This document shows positions 25,336 through 30,420 of a stretch of 34,387 bases of DNA, piece by piece. This DNA comes from a virus. The translations under genes and the position numbers were made by a program. The notes under the pieces are model-generated. The model saw nothing but the letters and a program-made list of their open reading frames with translations. It made no database searches and was not told where the DNA came from. The DNA lies in the IMG/VR virus record IMGVR_UViG_3300042554_000972, positions 1 through 34,387 of that record. One strand, 5' to 3'. Positions within the stretch are counted from its first letter, which is position 1; each line of letters starts with the position of its first letter.

Positions 25336-26655
25336 TCAATATACCCTGATCCCGGTCCCCTTGCCAGCCCTTTCGTAAAGCGGGTTGAACGCCCCCAGAA
25401 CCAAGTAACCCAGTCCATCAGTCCAGTGTTCAATGCCTGCTGTTTTGTCGATGACGTAATCGTCGGCACCCTGCTTATAGGTCACGTTTTTCAGTGCTTT
25501 GATGGTGTGCTTGCAGCGCGGATGCACAAATAGTTTAAGGTGCCCATCAGCAGTGCGGATCATCCAGTTGGTGGCGTTGATCTTGTCCTTCACTGCCCAC
25601 GGCGCTTTGGGGCTAACGCAGTTGAAACCGTAACGCCTGATGATGTCGTGGTCGGTTTTCCCGGCAGAACTGGTTTTGCGTGCTGAACCAGTCGGGTCTG
25701 GATAAGCAATGATGCGACGATCTGGGAAGCGTGCTTTCAGAAGTTGGCAAACTTCATCGGTGTTGGACTGGTTGACAGATACCTCATCCCAAATGTGCAG
25801 CGTGTCACCCACTCTGCTGCCAAGAACACCCGCCATGACACTGACGTTGAAATCAGTGCCCCAGTAGATTTCTGCTCCGGTGTCTTGAACGGTCTCAGAA
25901 ATATTGTCATCACTGAAATCTGGATAAACCCTGCCGGACAAGGTTTCAAAGGATGCAAGGTACTCTTGCCGGAAGGTGCGTTCATCCAGTGTGCGACGAG
26001 CAGCTTCTACCTCCTCTGGTGGGACGTTACCACCTTGCACTGTTGTGTAACTAAAAGCCTCCCAATCGTTTTGCGTATGAGCCTGTTCCCATAAATCATG
26101 AAACCAGTTAAGTCCTGCTGGTGTCGTGATAAACCACGCCGGACCACCTTGATCAGAGAGCGCCGGACGTAAAACCATCTCCCAGGCGTCTTGTTTAACG
26201 TAAGCGGCTTCATCGACGATGAGACTGGAGAGGCTAACGCCACGAAGAGTATCTGGGTTTTCAGCCCCCTTCAATGCAATGATGCTGCCATTGCTGAGTT
26301 CAACACTTAGCTCGGACTCGTTGCGCTTTACGAGAACTTCGGCTGGAATCATTGCTTTTAACTGGCGCCAAGCAATCTGTTTTGCCATGCGGTAGTTAGC
26401 TGTGACATACCAGTTCAGGCTGCTTGGTTTTTCAATAGCCCAAGCGGCAAGTCGAGCAATGCACAGGTAAGTTTTGCCAAATCGTCGTCCAGAGCAAAGG
26501 AGCTTAAACCGTTGGTTGCTGTCCCATACATGCTTCTGAGGAACGGTCAAGCTGTTGTAAAGATCAACCGCCAAAGGCGACCAATCTTTATCAGAAGCAA
26601 CCATGACCGGCGGCTCTAGTAGCGTCCCGCCCGGTAACGCATCAAGGATGCTCAC
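25336..26655 (-). CDS. terL: Terminase large subunit
   Basis: A 439-residue protein starting at GTG (GTGA overlap with the small subunit gene). The ATPase domain has Walker A CSGRRFGKTY (residues 54-63), Walker B SLIVDEAAY (144-152) and the coupling motif ITTP (176-179). The RNase H-like nuclease domain has GTDFN with D268, AYPDPTG with D320 and EHWTDGLGY with D413. TerL powers packaging and cuts the concatemer at start and end. All catalytic residues appear intact. It is followed by a strong terminator. Confidence 0.95.
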   Translation of the reverse strand: MSILDALPGGTLLEPPVMVASDKDWSPLAVDLYNSLTVPQKHVWDSNQRFKLLCSGRRFGKTYLCIARLAAWAIEKPSSLNWYVTANYRMAKQIAWRQLKAMIPAEVLVKRNESELSVELSNGSIIALKGAENPDTLRGVSLSSLIVDEAAYVKQDAWEMVLRPALSDQGGPAWFITTPAGLNWFHDLWEQAHTQNDWEAFSYTTVQGGNVPPEEVEAARRTLDERTFRQEYLASFETLSGRVYPDFSDDNISETVQDTGAEIYWGTDFNVSVMAGVLGSRVGDTLHIWDEVSVNQSNTDEVCQLLKARFPDRRIIAYPDPTGSARKTSSAGKTDHDIIRRYGFNCVSPKAPWAVKDKINATNWMIRTADGHLKLFVHPRCKHTIKALKNVTYKQGADDYVIDKTAGIEHWTDGLGYLVLGAFNPLYERAGKGTGIRVY

Positions 26656-26975
26656 TCAAAAACCCGAGCGATGCGTGCCGCAGTGTTAATGCATCCAAGA
26701 GCAACGTGCGGCTGGTTACTCTTCCGGGCTTCCTTTTGTAAAGAGGCTAGTTGGGAGAGAAGTTCAGCTACAAAGGTTTTGCGGTCTATCTCCCAGTCTG
26801 CGCGTAAGAGTTCTCGTGCTCGTTGAATGTATTTGTCGATCATGCGAGGTTGAAGCCCCCACTCGCTAGCACCGTATTGCACGCACTCAGAGCGAGTAGC
26901 GCCGTTGGCTAAAAGGCGTGCGATGCGGTTAACGCGCAGTTCAGTTTGAGCAAGGGTAGTTCCTTTTGCTGGCAT
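26652..26975 (-). CDS. terS: Terminase small subunit
   Basis: A 107-residue protein from ATG 26975, four bases after the PLP-enzyme stop; a longer frame to 27212 lies inside that gene. The N-terminal part is an HTH-like DNA-binding region (LAQTELRVNRIARLLANGATRSECVQY), followed by WGLQPRMIDKYIQRARELL, and a helical second half (FVAELLSQLASLQKEARKS) that would form the oligomer. TerS recognises the packaging site and regulates TerL. The stop overlaps the TerL GTG (GTGA). Confidence 0.88.
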   Translation of the reverse strand: MPAKGTTLAQTELRVNRIARLLANGATRSECVQYGASEWGLQPRMIDKYIQRARELLRADWEIDRKTFVAELLSQLASLQKEARKSNQPHVALGCINTAARIARVFE

Positions 26976-26979
26976 AGTT

Positions 26980-27705
26980 TTATCCAAGGACGTTCCAGAA
27001 CAATACTTTACCTTGCGATAGTTTAGTGCATAGCTCCCATGCTTTTCTATCGTAATTACCGCAAGAGGGAAAGGGGGTATTGAATTTAGAAGACCATGAG
27101 AAGTCTTTAGGGTACTTGTGAAGCGTGACGTTAGAGGGGTAATTTTGTTTTTGATTACGAGAGGATAGACCAACGATGACGCCATGAACGGGAGTGGGGT
27201 AGAAGGCTTCACCGAGACAACGGGCTAGCATTCCTGAACCTGTGGCTGCCCATACTTGATCAACGTTACCAACCATGTTGCGGACGTTTTGCATTTGCTG
27301 AATGAAGGGTGCAGATGCTTGTGGGACGTCGAAGCCTAGTGGAAGGAAGAGAGCGTTGTTTTCAGCGGCGTATCGTTTTGCTTTGGATTGGACGTTAGAC
27401 ATGTAGCCGTAGGGTACTTGATAGATGGTGGCGCCATTTTGAAGAGCTTTTTTTTGACGTTGATGGAGGTCAGTACGTTTGGCGTAGAAGAGGGTTATTT
27501 TTGTATTTGTTCTTTGACCCCAGACTGAAAGAGCGTAAGGAGCGCCACCGCAAAAAGGACCGCCGAATACGATTTCTTTGGCGTCTTGAACCAAGTAGGG
27601 TAGGAACCTCATTTTGGAACCGCCAGGGACAAGATCATCTCTGACGATTAGAAAGCGGTCGTGTTCATCGATTATGGGTGTTGGTTGCCACCAGTTATTA
27701 GGCAT
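26980..27705 (-). CDS. PLP-dependent fold-type II enzyme, ACC deaminase/D-Cys desulfhydrase-like
   Basis: A 241-residue protein, shorter than the roughly 330 of cellular relatives. It keeps the PLP-lysine motif: VRDDLVPGGSKMRFL with K31, equal to the REDL...GGNKxRKL of ACC deaminase and D-cysteine desulfhydrase. It also has a glycine motif GGPFCGGAPYALS (48-60) and the phosphate-binding loop ATGSGML (154-160). It ends with KVLFWNVLG. Such enzymes act on the alpha or beta carbon of amino acids. It overlaps the GNAT/oxygenase fusion by 8 nt and precedes TerS by 4 nt, suggesting it works with the DNA-modification-type genes upstream, perhaps supplying or trimming an amino-acid-derived group. This pathway role is inference. 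Confidence 0.8.
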   Translation of the reverse strand: MPNNWWQPTPIIDEHDRFLIVRDDLVPGGSKMRFLPYLVQDAKEIVFGGPFCGGAPYALSVWGQRTNTKITLFYAKRTDLHQRQKKALQNGATIYQVPYGYMSNVQSKAKRYAAENNALFLPLGFDVPQASAPFIQQMQNVRNMVGNVDQVWAATGSGMLARCLGEAFYPTPVHGVIVGLSSRNQKQNYPSNVTLHKYPKDFSWSSKFNTPFPSCGNYDRKAWELCTKLSQGKVLFWNVLG

Positions 27706-28852
27706 AAGAGAGCAGCTCCCTAGTTTGAGCGTTACAGGCTACGTCTATTACTAGGTGGATTCTGTTGATTTGGCTGGTGTTTTTAACAGCGTGTGGTTTG
27801 CGGATGTCTAAGTAGAAGAGAGAGCCAGCGGCAAAGTGCTGTTGGTTTAGGGTGCCGTCTAGTTCCCAGCCAGAGAAAAGACAGCCTTGTGCAGTTTGGA
27901 GAGGAATGTGAAAGCGGGCTATTTTTCCGTTTTCCGTACCTGCATCGCGGTCGGTGATGTCAGCATGACGAGTGAGTTCCCCATTTGAAGCGCGAAGGCG
28001 CATCAAGCGTACGCGTTCTAGGTTGCCTGGAACGGAGTATGCAAGTTCCCAGATTGTGGGAAGTGCTTTAGCAGCAGCGGTGGGGGCACATTTAGCAGAT
28101 AGGCGTGAGGCGTTTTCCTGTTTCCAAGTTTTACTCATTTCTGAGGGTTTGATTATGAACTGCGGATCTGAGGGATCAAAACCTTGAAGGGCTATGGCGG
28201 TCCAAGATTGACGTTTGTTGTAAGAGCTGTAATGTTGCTCCCATGAAGGTTGGTAACTGTTGATTTCAGCAATGCAGGCATCAATGGTTGATTGAGAGGC
28301 GCCAGTACCGAGGTGCTTTAGGGCTGGGAGATCAGCGGGGTGAAGTGAGGGTGATACCCGAGCGGAAGGGTTGGTTCCTTTGATGTAGAGAGATTTTATG
28401 TCAGAAGATGCGGCAACTTTTGTTGCTGCCAGTGAGAAGCCTAAGGTTGTAGCGATAGCTGTTGCTTGTTGGTTTTCAGCGTGAAGTTCTAGCCATGTAG
28501 GGCGTGTGCCAGCTTTTGCTATGAGTCGTTCGATCAATTCTTGCAAGAGGTGTGGTGCGCCTGCTGCTGCTTTAATTTGGAGATCACCAGGGCAGATTGT
28601 AATTATGCGTTGAGCGAAGTCTGATTGCTTACTGGTTGTTTTGGCAACGCGAAAGATGGTTGCTGCTGCTATTTTGCCTGATCCATCACGTAGCCAGGCT
28701 AGGTTTCCTTGTTTATGTGCTGTAGCGATGTCGCGTTCTTTAGGGATGCCGAAAGCACCGTAAGTATGAGGTTTAAAGTCTTGCGAGAAGAGGGTTGCTA
28801 CTTGCTTGAGGAAAGCGAGGTCGTAGCCAAGAGCCCAGGCAGGATCTGACAT
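27698..28852 (-). CDS. GNAT acyltransferase-like / Asp-beta-hydroxylase-like fusion
   Basis: A 384-residue protein from ATG 28852, whose A is shared with the MTase TGA stop (TGATG). Residues 1-160 look like a GNAT domain: GNLAWLRDGSGKIAAATIF, ITICPGDLQIKAAAGAPHLL (acyl-CoA loop region), WLELHAEN, and LGF near residue 139. Residues 190-384 look like an aspartyl/asparaginyl beta-hydroxylase-type 2-oxoglutarate oxygenase: ERVRLMRLR, the iron motif H296-A-D298 (TRHADIT), H354 (RKPHAV) and R364 (INRIHLVIDV). So it may both transfer an acyl-like group and hydroxylate. Phage Mu Mom is a GNAT-fold DNA modifier, a useful comparison. The substrate is unknown; it could be DNA base, a carrier amino acid or a protein. 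Confidence 0.75.
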   Translation of the reverse strand: MSDPAWALGYDLAFLKQVATLFSQDFKPHTYGAFGIPKERDIATAHKQGNLAWLRDGSGKIAAATIFRVAKTTSKQSDFAQRIITICPGDLQIKAAAGAPHLLQELIERLIAKAGTRPTWLELHAENQQATAIATTLGFSLAATKVAASSDIKSLYIKGTNPSARVSPSLHPADLPALKHLGTGASQSTIDACIAEINSYQPSWEQHYSSYNKRQSWTAIALQGFDPSDPQFIIKPSEMSKTWKQENASRLSAKCAPTAAAKALPTIWELAYSVPGNLERVRLMRLRASNGELTRHADITDRDAGTENGKIARFHIPLQTAQGCLFSGWELDGTLNQQHFAAGSLFYLDIRKPHAVKNTSQINRIHLVIDVACNAQTRELLSYA

Positions 28853-30420
28853 CAAAGTTCACCTCCTAGTGATTCTGCGGTGAGTTTTTCACCGTATTCA
28901 GTGGATTGACCGACTGAAGGTTGCTGGTCGGCGTCTTCGTTGATTTCAGCAAAGTCGCAGTCACCGCAACGGGCTACAGCTTTGCGTGCATCACCTTTTA
29001 GAAAAACGAGGACGTTTTGGTGAGTTTTGCCTAGTTTGCGAGTTGCAGCAAAGGTTCGACCAGCGCGTAGGGGAAGGGTTCCTACTGGGGTAACGAGGAT
29101 AGCTTCGTTGTAATAGGAAAGCCCAGCATCAATAAAGGCTTGGATTGTATCGCCTACAAAGTTGTAGTAGTTGCCTTTTTTGTCGCGCACATCGCCTACG
29201 ACAAAGCAGGCAAAGGAGTCCGGTTTTAAGAGGCTACAGGCTTTGGCGATGATTTCGCGGTAGGAGGCTACGAAGTCGCTGTAGGGCAAGGTTGACAAGT
29301 CTTTGGGGTCGTCGCTGTAGACCTCAAGGTCTGCGTAAGGAGGACAAGAAAAGATCATGTCGGCTTGCACGCCTTTGCATACACGGTCGATGTTGCGGGA
29401 GTCTGTGCAGTGCCAAAGTGGCGGATTATCTGGCGTGATGGTTGCAGCTTGATCGCGGTTGGCGTCGATCTGTTCTTGCCGGAGATCGCAACCGATATAT
29501 TGGCGGTTGGTTTTAGCGGCGACGATGCCACGAACGGAGCCACCAGCAAAGGGGTCAAGGATGATGCCGTTTTCTGGAGAGAACCAGCGGTAGGCAAGCT
29601 CAGCTAAAACTGGGTCAAAGATGCTGGTGCCACCTGCTTTAGCACCGGAGGCTAGGTACTCTTCGATGATTTGCTCATCGGTCAAGCCTTGGTTTTTCTT
29701 GGTGTAGTAACCAGGCAGCATTTCAATGTTGGCAGTTTGCGTGCCATGGTCACGCATTAGAGCCTTCATTTCACGAAGTTTTTCGTCAGGCTCAAGCATG
29801 GTCTCTGACATGCCTAGCAGGTTGCCTTTTCTACCAACTTCGCTTTGGATGCCTAAGGCTATCCACTGCCGCTTGCGTTCTTGCCACCAGCCTTCACGAG
29901 CGTTGAGGATTGTGAAAGGAGCAATTCCAAAGCGATCAGAGAGTTTGGTTCCTGGGGAAGGAGCGGAGCCGTCGGTTTCGTCTTTGGCGTCTTCTAGTGC
30001 TTGGTCAAAGTCCTCAAAGGTTTCTGGTTCTGCCAAGCCAGAGAGATCGTCAACATTGAACCAAGGTTCTAAGTCGTGATCCTGGGAAAGACGGTGGAGC
30101 ATTTCACGATCCCAGTCGCTGAGATCAGCGGTTCGATTATCAGCTAGTGCTAGCCCTACTTTTTCGTCTTCTGTAAGCCCTTTACGGCGGATAGCGATGA
30201 TCTCGTCGCCTTCGCTTTCGATGATGCGAACATTTTGGATGCCTGCTGCTTTAGCGCCTTCTACGGTGCCGTTGCCAGCGAGGATACGGTTGTCTTCGTC
30301 GATGACGATAGAGCGTGCAGCGCCGTAGCGTTGCAACGATTCTTTAATGAGTTCAGCGGAGCGGTTAGTGCGCTTGCGGGCGTTTTTATGGTCAGCCTTC
30401 AGGTTGTTGATTGATGTCAC
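28852..30420 (-). CDS. ParB-like domain fused to DNA amino-methyltransferase
   Basis: A 522-residue protein from a GTG. Residues 1-100 are ParB/Srx-like: HKNARKRTNRSAELIKESL, RYGAARSIVIDEDNRILAGN, LADNRTADLSDWD. The C-terminal half is a methyltransferase: SAM motif LDPFAGGSVRG (288-298), a following acidic strand (YIGCDLRQEQ) and catalytic SCPPYADLE (358-366), the (S/N)PPY type that methylates N6-adenine or N4-cytosine. An insert with REGWWQERKRQW lies between the domains. It ends acidic. Phages often use such enzymes to protect DNA from restriction. Here it is the first of three overlapping genes that look like a hypermodification set, so it may act with them rather than simply methylate. 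Confidence 0.88.
   Translation of the reverse strand: MTSINNLKADHKNARKRTNRSAELIKESLQRYGAARSIVIDEDNRILAGNGTVEGAKAAGIQNVRIIESEGDEIIAIRRKGLTEDEKVGLALADNRTADLSDWDREMLHRLSQDHDLEPWFNVDDLSGLAEPETFEDFDQALEDAKDETDGSAPSPGTKLSDRFGIAPFTILNAREGWWQERKRQWIALGIQSEVGRKGNLLGMSETMLEPDEKLREMKALMRDHGTQTANIEMLPGYYTKKNQGLTDEQIIEEYLASGAKAGGTSIFDPVLAELAYRWFSPENGIILDPFAGGSVRGIVAAKTNRQYIGCDLRQEQIDANRDQAATITPDNPPLWHCTDSRNIDRVCKGVQADMIFSCPPYADLEVYSDDPKDLSTLPYSDFVASYREIIAKACSLLKPDSFACFVVGDVRDKKGNYYNFVGDTIQAFIDAGLSYYNEAILVTPVGTLPLRAGRTFAATRKLGKTHQNVLVFLKGDARKAVARCGDCDFAEINEDADQQPSVGQSTEYGEKLTAESLGGEL

Follow-up and report, generated by a model that had tools for sequence, protein, structure and literature searches.

A terminase-linked phage gene cassette with a probable role in DNA hypermodification and a possible transfer of the SAM tail to DNA bases

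The window analysed here is the whole of the 34,387-nt bacterial virus record IMGVR_UViG_3300042554_000972 (positions 1 to 34,387), in which three enzyme genes lie end to end on the minus strand, at the coordinates given in an earlier note on this DNA. The first (28852..30420) encodes a ParB domain fused to a methyltransferase (MTase)-like enzyme of 522 aa, which, in the pathway proposed below, would take the first step by placing a SAM-derived group on a base of the DNA. The second (27698..28852) encodes a 384-aa protein in which a GNAT-like domain is fused to an HxD 2OG/Fe(II) oxygenase from the Asp_Arg_Hydrox group, and the third (26980..27705) a short fold-type II PLP enzyme of 241 aa, which is D-cysteine desulfhydrase/ACC deaminase-like. 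Both overlaps were read as previously claimed, with TGATG at 28854-28850 and 8 nt shared at 27698-27705, and the cassette runs straight into the terminase small subunit gene (TerS, 107 aa, 26652..26975, minus strand), leaving a gap of 4 nt after the PLP stop, with the large subunit encoded on the same strand at 25336..26655. The TerS start is most likely 26975 (ATGCCAGCAAAAGG...), which gives a 107-aa protein of the same length as in relatives.

The assignment of the first gene product to the methyltransferase family was borne out by two family collections. A ParB-like N-terminus precedes an N6/N4 MTase domain that matches Pfam N6_N4_Mtase with an E of 2e-14 and passes the PF01555 cut-off (54.7 bits vs 26.7), the protein matches the ParB and MTase families of PHROG, and matches to CcrM-type enzymes are weak. 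The SAM-binding motif I, DPFAGGSVRG, occupies residues 289-298 (29527..29556, minus strand), and motif IV occupies residues 359-362 (29335..29346, minus strand). The latter had been described as (S/N)PPY; its actual letters are CPPY, which depart from the canonical (D/N/S)PP(Y/F/W) and are invariant in the family sample, being found in all 14 aligned sequences.

The C-terminal part of the second protein was related to amino-acid hydroxylases by both Pfam and PDB matches, in agreement with the AspH comparison suggested earlier. Its score of 31 bits exceeds the Asp_Arg_Hydrox (PF05118) gathering score of 22.6, and its best PDB matches in sequence and fold belong to the L-proline cis-4-hydroxylase/AspH group (4p7w, 7v4f, 5apa), L-proline cis-4-hydroxylase being the top match. 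The iron and 2-oxoglutarate residues H296-x-D298, H354 and R364 (27761..27967, minus strand) are invariant in 15 aligned sequences. AspH lacks the carboxylate iron ligand, whereas the window oxygenase keeps HxD and differs from the group in its fusion to a GNAT-like domain. This N-terminal domain (about residues 1-165; 28358..28852, minus strand) was assigned mainly from predicted topology: the strands and helices of the AlphaFold model (mean pLDDT 87.8) succeed one another in the GNAT order, judged by reading the model. Sequence support for the GNAT label is weak. No Pfam GNAT profile matched the window domain, in which the acyl-CoA-binding signature was not found; Acetyltransf_18 reached an E of 0.02-0.04, below the cut-off, in two relatives of the protein.

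The third enzyme matches PHROG 7093 with an E of 1e-30 and scores just under the PALP gathering score. The fold-type II assignment with a GGxK lysine, made earlier, holds, since the fold is matched, Lys31 of GGSK (27613..27615, minus strand) is invariant in 62 PLP ORFs, and the phosphate-binding glycine loop G156-S157-G158 is invariant as well. The enzyme shares the PLP lysine and a close fold with D-cysteine desulfhydrase and ACC deaminase (4d8u, 1j0a), but it is about 80-100 residues shorter and its carboxylate-binding loop is replaced. Fold-type II enzymes usually bind the substrate carboxylate by a Ser/Thr-x-Asn loop; these PLP enzymes carry CGGAP or related GGA(Q) loops instead, so the substrate is uncertain. 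A cellular origin of the enzyme was considered and set aside, as only two contigs were recovered when 84,980 genomes were scanned with the PLP alignment, one of them clearly a window-like phage.

In total, both partners lie close to the MTase in 35 surveyed ParB-MTase entries, among which a few contigs appear twice, and in 27 of them the genes are contiguous in the order MTase, oxygenase, PLP enzyme, an order kept with start-stop overlaps. In Erythrobacter phage ZS04 the PLP domain lies within the MTase domain as an insertion, and Pseudanabaena phage Pam4 has a PLP-MTase fusion. Cultured phages exist for each variant, among them Mae-JY30, ZS04, R6L, Pam4 and Vincenzo for the PLP type, P2559S and ZRG1 for a type with SAM decarboxylase, and LilMcDreamy for the oxygenase beside ADDT/TET. 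Of the 80 loci in which the GNAT-like/oxygenase protein was detected, its two domains being fused in those aligned, 70 also carry the MTase and/or PLP enzyme, eight carry an amino acid:DNA transferase (ADDT), seven of these together with TET/JBP, and two have neither context. Across relatives the cassette genes occupy the same genomic slot before the terminase. Loss of co-occurrence in related phages, which the earlier note had named as grounds for refutation, was looked for, and the three genes do co-occur; chance is excluded as the explanation, because deeply diverged sequences still carry the cassette. The cassette very probably serves DNA hypermodification as such. That part of the earlier interpretation is upheld by conserved co-occurrence, whereas kinship with phage Mu Mom (discussed below) and a final trimming of the modification, for which there is no specific evidence, were dropped.

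Many MTase relatives stand directly before the terminase without any partner, and no further conserved partners of these stood out except terminase and portal-type genes. Along the MTase tree the PLP enzyme is gained or lost about 18 times, and neither discriminating alignment columns nor PLP-specific residue changes were found between PLP-linked and partnerless MTases; given both results, the PLP enzyme looks like an add-on that would work after an MTase step common to all.

Within the same MTase family, one clade has a different partner. SpeD (S-adenosylmethionine decarboxylase) adjoins 75 of the 81 MTase entries with the motif GD(S/T)(V/A)F and none of the 116 entries with GG motifs, the window's among them, a coupling for which the Fisher p-value ignores kinship; the few clade members without SpeD in their records are often from partial ones. 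Two positions in the SAM-binding loop are exchanged in this clade, G294D and R297F in window numbering, with D294/F297 in 69/69 SpeD-clade sequences and G294/R297 in 102/102 others by alignment column. In class I MTases this loop holds the methionine part of SAM. As the clade is monophyletic on the MTase tree, the exchange may have happened just once, and the other differences of the clade reflect shared ancestry. ParB-MTase and SpeD pairs, as in Croceibacter phage P2559S and Pseudomonas phage ZRG1, resemble the window in that the enzyme beside the MTase acts on an amino-acid-bearing substrate, SAM in the case of SpeD, but the partner is a pyruvoyl SAM decarboxylase rather than a PLP enzyme, and D294/F297 stand where the window MTase has G294/R297. 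The P2559S SpeD is experimentally genuine, since an E. coli speD mutant supplied with it regained spermidine, and phage SpeD was interpreted as polyamine metabolism (PMC9992855).

The comparison with the SpeD clade suggests that the MTase-like enzyme may itself install an amino-acid group, drawn from the SAM tail. The earlier note, in which the MTase altered a base that was then decorated, had left the amino-acid route open. We infer that enzymes of this family are able to transfer the tail of SAM in place of its methyl group, as aminopropyl in the SpeD clade and as aminocarboxypropyl in the window. The ParB-MTase-like enzyme would thus transfer the 3-amino-3-carboxypropyl (acp) tail of SAM to a DNA base, probably to the exocyclic amine of A or C, by which the base would come to carry an alpha-amino acid. 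The PLP enzyme would then work on this base-borne amino acid at its alpha/beta carbons, and the oxygenase domain would hydroxylate the side chain, while the GNAT-like domain may cap its amine. In the SpeD clade, an aminopropyl group would be installed from decarboxylated SAM (dcSAM) made by the adjoining SpeD. This full mechanism, a terminase-linked base hypermodification by SAM-tail transfer followed by PLP and oxygenase remodelling, is given a probability of about 0.42. It builds on the observed genes, folds, co-occurrence, PLP-MTase fusion, two oxygenase contexts and SpeD/SAM-loop coupling, and the second oxygenase context, TET/JBP with an amino acid:DNA transferase, and the top PDB match of the oxygenase, an amino-acid hydroxylase, speak for it.

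That context belongs to thymidine hypermodification (TET/JBP, DNA kinase, ADDT/aGPT-Pplase; the LilMcDreamy cassette), in which likewise an amino acid is put on DNA and then remodelled, and LilMcDreamy gp4 is homologous to the oxygenase protein of the window over its full length (30% identity, TM 0.82/0.86). The window has a ParB-MTase and a PLP enzyme where the thymidine pathway has ADDT, TET/JBP and Ploopntkinase3; in the window record, which is possibly incomplete, no match was obtained to ADDT/aGPT-Pplase, TET/JBP or Ploopntkinase3, LilMcDreamy serving as the positive control for ADDT. We know of no DNA-modifying enzyme that takes its group from the SAM tail, and a precedent for the transfer of acp to DNA was not found. 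For the use of an altered SAM on phage DNA there is one, the CmoA-CmoX-CmoY carboxymethylcytosine pathway of Synechococcus phage S-B43, in which CmoX uses carboxy-SAM (PMC12783734). There too an MTase-family enzyme with an altered SAM places a reactive handle on a base for elaboration by a partner, and ParB domains are frequently nearby; however, CmoX is a C5-cytosine MTase, whereas the window MTase is of N6/N4 type with CPPY and has PLP and oxygenase partners, and N6/N4 counterparts of CmoX were not found according to the same study (PMC12783734).

Plain methylation by the ParB-MTase is a less likely reading. The enzyme would merely N-methylate adenine or cytosine, and the PLP enzyme and oxygenase would belong to another DNA modification, separate or parallel, that needs a host-supplied group, in keeping with the N6_N4_Mtase and weak CcrM-type matches and with PLP-linked MTases that are indistinguishable from partnerless ones. 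The common partnerless MTases before the terminase would be simply explained by plain methylation, which counts against the full mechanism, as do the monophyly of the SpeD clade, its few members without SpeD and the replaced carboxylate-binding loop of the PLP enzyme. PLP enzymes, however, act on amino groups, chiefly those of amino acids, so it would be surprising to find them paired again and again with a plain methylase. The PLP domain sitting inside the MTase domain, the changed SAM loop of the SpeD clade and a known amino-acid attachment route (ADDT, TET/JBP, Ploopntkinase3) unmatched in the window record likewise speak against this alternative.

It is rather improbable that the PLP enzyme instead makes a modified donor, or a small amine or amino acid, which the MTase-like enzyme or GNAT-like domain attaches to DNA, as the co-substrate site is unchanged between PLP-linked and partnerless MTases, even though in the SpeD clade it is the co-substrate SAM, rather than DNA, on which the MTase partner acts, and phage CmoA likewise supplies CmoX (PMC12783734). 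Auxiliary metabolism unrelated to DNA would accord with the polyamine reading of phage SpeD (PMC9992855) and with the metabolic roles of these enzyme families in cells, but it is very improbable in the face of fused and inserted PLP domains, 78/80 oxygenase loci with ParB-MTase, PLP or ADDT/TET, and the constant slot before the terminase. Direct adenine modification by a Mom-like GNAT enzyme, by analogy with phage Mu, is hardly tenable: Mom has a GNAT-like fold, and such a topology in a DNA-modification setting is common to both, but profile comparison with Mom relatives (hhalign) gave a probability of 0.1%, against the kinship assumed earlier, and the domain is an oxygenase fusion in the aligned loci with no GNAT profile match in the window.

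Extended from the SAM-tail mechanism of the window to the whole family, a tentative proposal is that a widespread group of phage enzymes, for long annotated as DNA methylases, puts the tail of SAM (amino acid) or of dcSAM (aminopropyl) on DNA bases, with PLP enzymes, amino-acid hydroxylases or SAM decarboxylases as interchangeable partners. In the literature searched, no paper on dcSAM or acp modification of DNA, or on a ParB-MTase/PLP pair, was found, and parts of the cassette may be mentioned in Iyer et al. 2013 and the thymidine papers of Lee et al.; the consulted passages of the R6L phage paper contain methylase annotations and no restriction or mass data on R6L DNA.

If the SAM-tail reading is true, DNA would receive a SAM-derived group (acp, aminopropyl), a transfer that to our knowledge has so far been known only from RNA, protein and small-molecule chemistry, and the common phage annotation 'methylase' would be wrong. 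The family would offer enzymes for writing handles, amines and amino acids, onto DNA, and the SAM decarboxylases of at least some phages, part of those now read as polyamine genes, would gain a function.

In the window, the cassette genes lie on the minus strand in the order ParB-MTase (30420-28852), GNAT-like/oxygenase protein (28852-27698) and PLP enzyme (27705-26980), followed on the same strand by TerS (26975-26652) and TerL (26655-25336). The window comprises an entire virus record of 34,387 bases. The three ORFs matched exactly the coordinates of the earlier note, and both junctions described there were found, namely the TGATG common to the stop of the ParB-MTase and the start of the GNAT-like/oxygenase gene, and the 8-nt overlap of the latter with the PLP enzyme gene. 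The closest TerL among cultured phages is that of cyanophage S-2L (49.6% identity), whose DNA contains 2-aminoadenine.

The ParB-MTase joins a ParB-like N-terminus to an N6/N4-type methyltransferase (MTase) with motif I DPFAGGSVRG and motif IV CPPY, the latter identical in all 14 aligned relatives, which come from bacterial and archaeal phages. In the second protein, the oxygenase half scores above the Asp_Arg_Hydrox cut-off of Pfam. All 15 aligned sequences keep its iron and 2-oxoglutarate residues, and among solved structures it is nearest to L-proline cis-4-hydroxylase and to a hydroxylase from a nucleoside antibiotic pathway. As for the N-terminal half, called GNAT-like and likened to phage Mu Mom in the earlier note, the helices and strands of the AlphaFold model (mean pLDDT 87.8) succeed one another, by our reading, as in the GNAT fold; sequence support is weak, and the comparison with Mom gave no match. 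The PLP enzyme is a shortened member of fold type II, and by fold it most resembles Campylobacter protein CJ0600, D-cysteine desulfhydrase and ACC deaminase; neither the PLP lysine nor the glycine loop varies, and the loop usual for the substrate carboxylate is replaced.

A viral-contig search with the PLP enzyme as query gave 35 loci, in many of which these three genes again precede the terminase. The joint survey covered 210 loci, with some contigs entering twice and records often being fragments; both partners occurred near the MTase in 35 entries, 27 of them in contiguous order. MTase and PLP enzyme form a single protein in Pam4, the PLP domain sits between two halves of the MTase domain in Erythrobacter phage ZS04, and ParB, MTase and PLP are three separate genes in Microcystis phage Mae-JY30. 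In Vincenzo, the ParB-MTase is followed by a longer PLP protein, which bears the annotation 'carboxylate deaminase', and then by a short gene and TerS. L280, a Flavobacteriaceae MAG contig closely related to the window phage, has a ParB-MTase and a divergent PLP enzyme with no oxygenase gene between. The oxygenase also accompanies the MTase without PLP. At three loci (L230:5603-6226, L231:7114-7740 and L260:7154-7768), the place of the PLP enzyme after the oxygenase protein is taken by a second small MTase of the N6/N4 type. A distant PLP relative occurs in Staphylococcus phage Alsa_1 (L005:4725-5453), with a DNA methyltransferase ~1 kb upstream.

Among 80 oxygenase loci, the neighbours were MTase and PLP (52), MTase only (13), PLP only (5), amino acid:DNA transferase (ADDT) with TET/JBP (7), ADDT (1) or neither (2), the single-partner counts being blurred by contig ends cutting loci. 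The homolog in Mycobacterium phage LilMcDreamy, gp4, is preceded by ParB, a TET/JBP-like oxygenase and ADDT. The next gene, gp5 (L002:3761-4333), is annotated TerS but matches PF18751 P-loop Nucleotide Kinase3 (E 1e-71) and likely belongs to a hypermodification operon. LilMcDreamy gp2 (L002:855-1787) is annotated queuine tRNA-ribosyltransferase, as is PHROG 6059, but proteins related to gp2 hit TET/JBP with E values as good as 9e-9. Rhodococcus phage Tonitrus has a similar set of five genes, which has been named a thymidine hypermodification system (PMC11955845). The two gene contexts and these sets place the oxygenase protein in DNA modification, and in settings where the base receives an amino acid.

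Another partner is S-adenosylmethionine decarboxylase (SpeD), which follows the ParB-MTase in Croceibacter phage P2559S and Pseudomonas phage ZRG1 and mostly overlaps the MTase gene where paired. SpeD lay within 3 kb of 75/81 MTases with GD(S/T)(V/A)F vs 0/116 with GG motifs, an association that ignores kinship. The MTase domain set came to 173 after identical or short sequences were dropped; the GD...F MTases form a single clade (support 1.0), of which 69/69 have D294 and F297, with G294 and R297 in 102/102 others. ParB-MTase and SpeD pairs with G294D/R297F in the SAM loop were seen at L045, L047 and L130-L209. In class I MTases the loop containing these positions holds the methionine part of SAM, so the loss of Arg and gain of Asp fits a donor lacking the carboxylate. 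Decarboxylated SAM is the cell's usual aminopropyl donor. The P2559S SpeD restored spermidine in an E. coli speD mutant and therefore makes decarboxylated SAM; methyltransferases go unmentioned in the main text of that study (PMC9992855). The SpeD-linked clade would thus aminopropylate DNA. Four members (L173, L178, L179 and L196) have no SpeD in their records and perhaps rely on host SpeD.

For SAM-using members, the aminocarboxypropyl tail may be what is transferred, the weaker half of the proposal. Partnerless members may carry out simple methylation. For the window, aminocarboxypropyl transfer is favoured because the PLP enzyme and the amino-acid-hydroxylase-like enzyme joined the MTase repeatedly (PLP state switches ~18 times across the MTase tree), sometimes in one polypeptide, with no accompanying change visible in the MTase comparison; both enzymes would presumably require a substrate resembling an amino acid.

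In M6-type pathways, PLP and acetyltransferase steps act on thymidines bearing amino acids. In phage S-B43, CmoX uses carboxy-SAM to form 5-carboxymethylcytosine, to which glycine is ligated afterwards, and its authors noted no N6/N4 counterparts (PMC12783734). Since these precedents exist, yet a literature search of partial coverage found no report of 3-amino-3-carboxypropyl or aminopropyl groups on DNA, the cassette is taken as a new variety of phage DNA hypermodification, with chemistry that is possibly new. The ParB-MTase and SpeD pairs are a separate finding, which bears on phage-encoded SAM decarboxylases.
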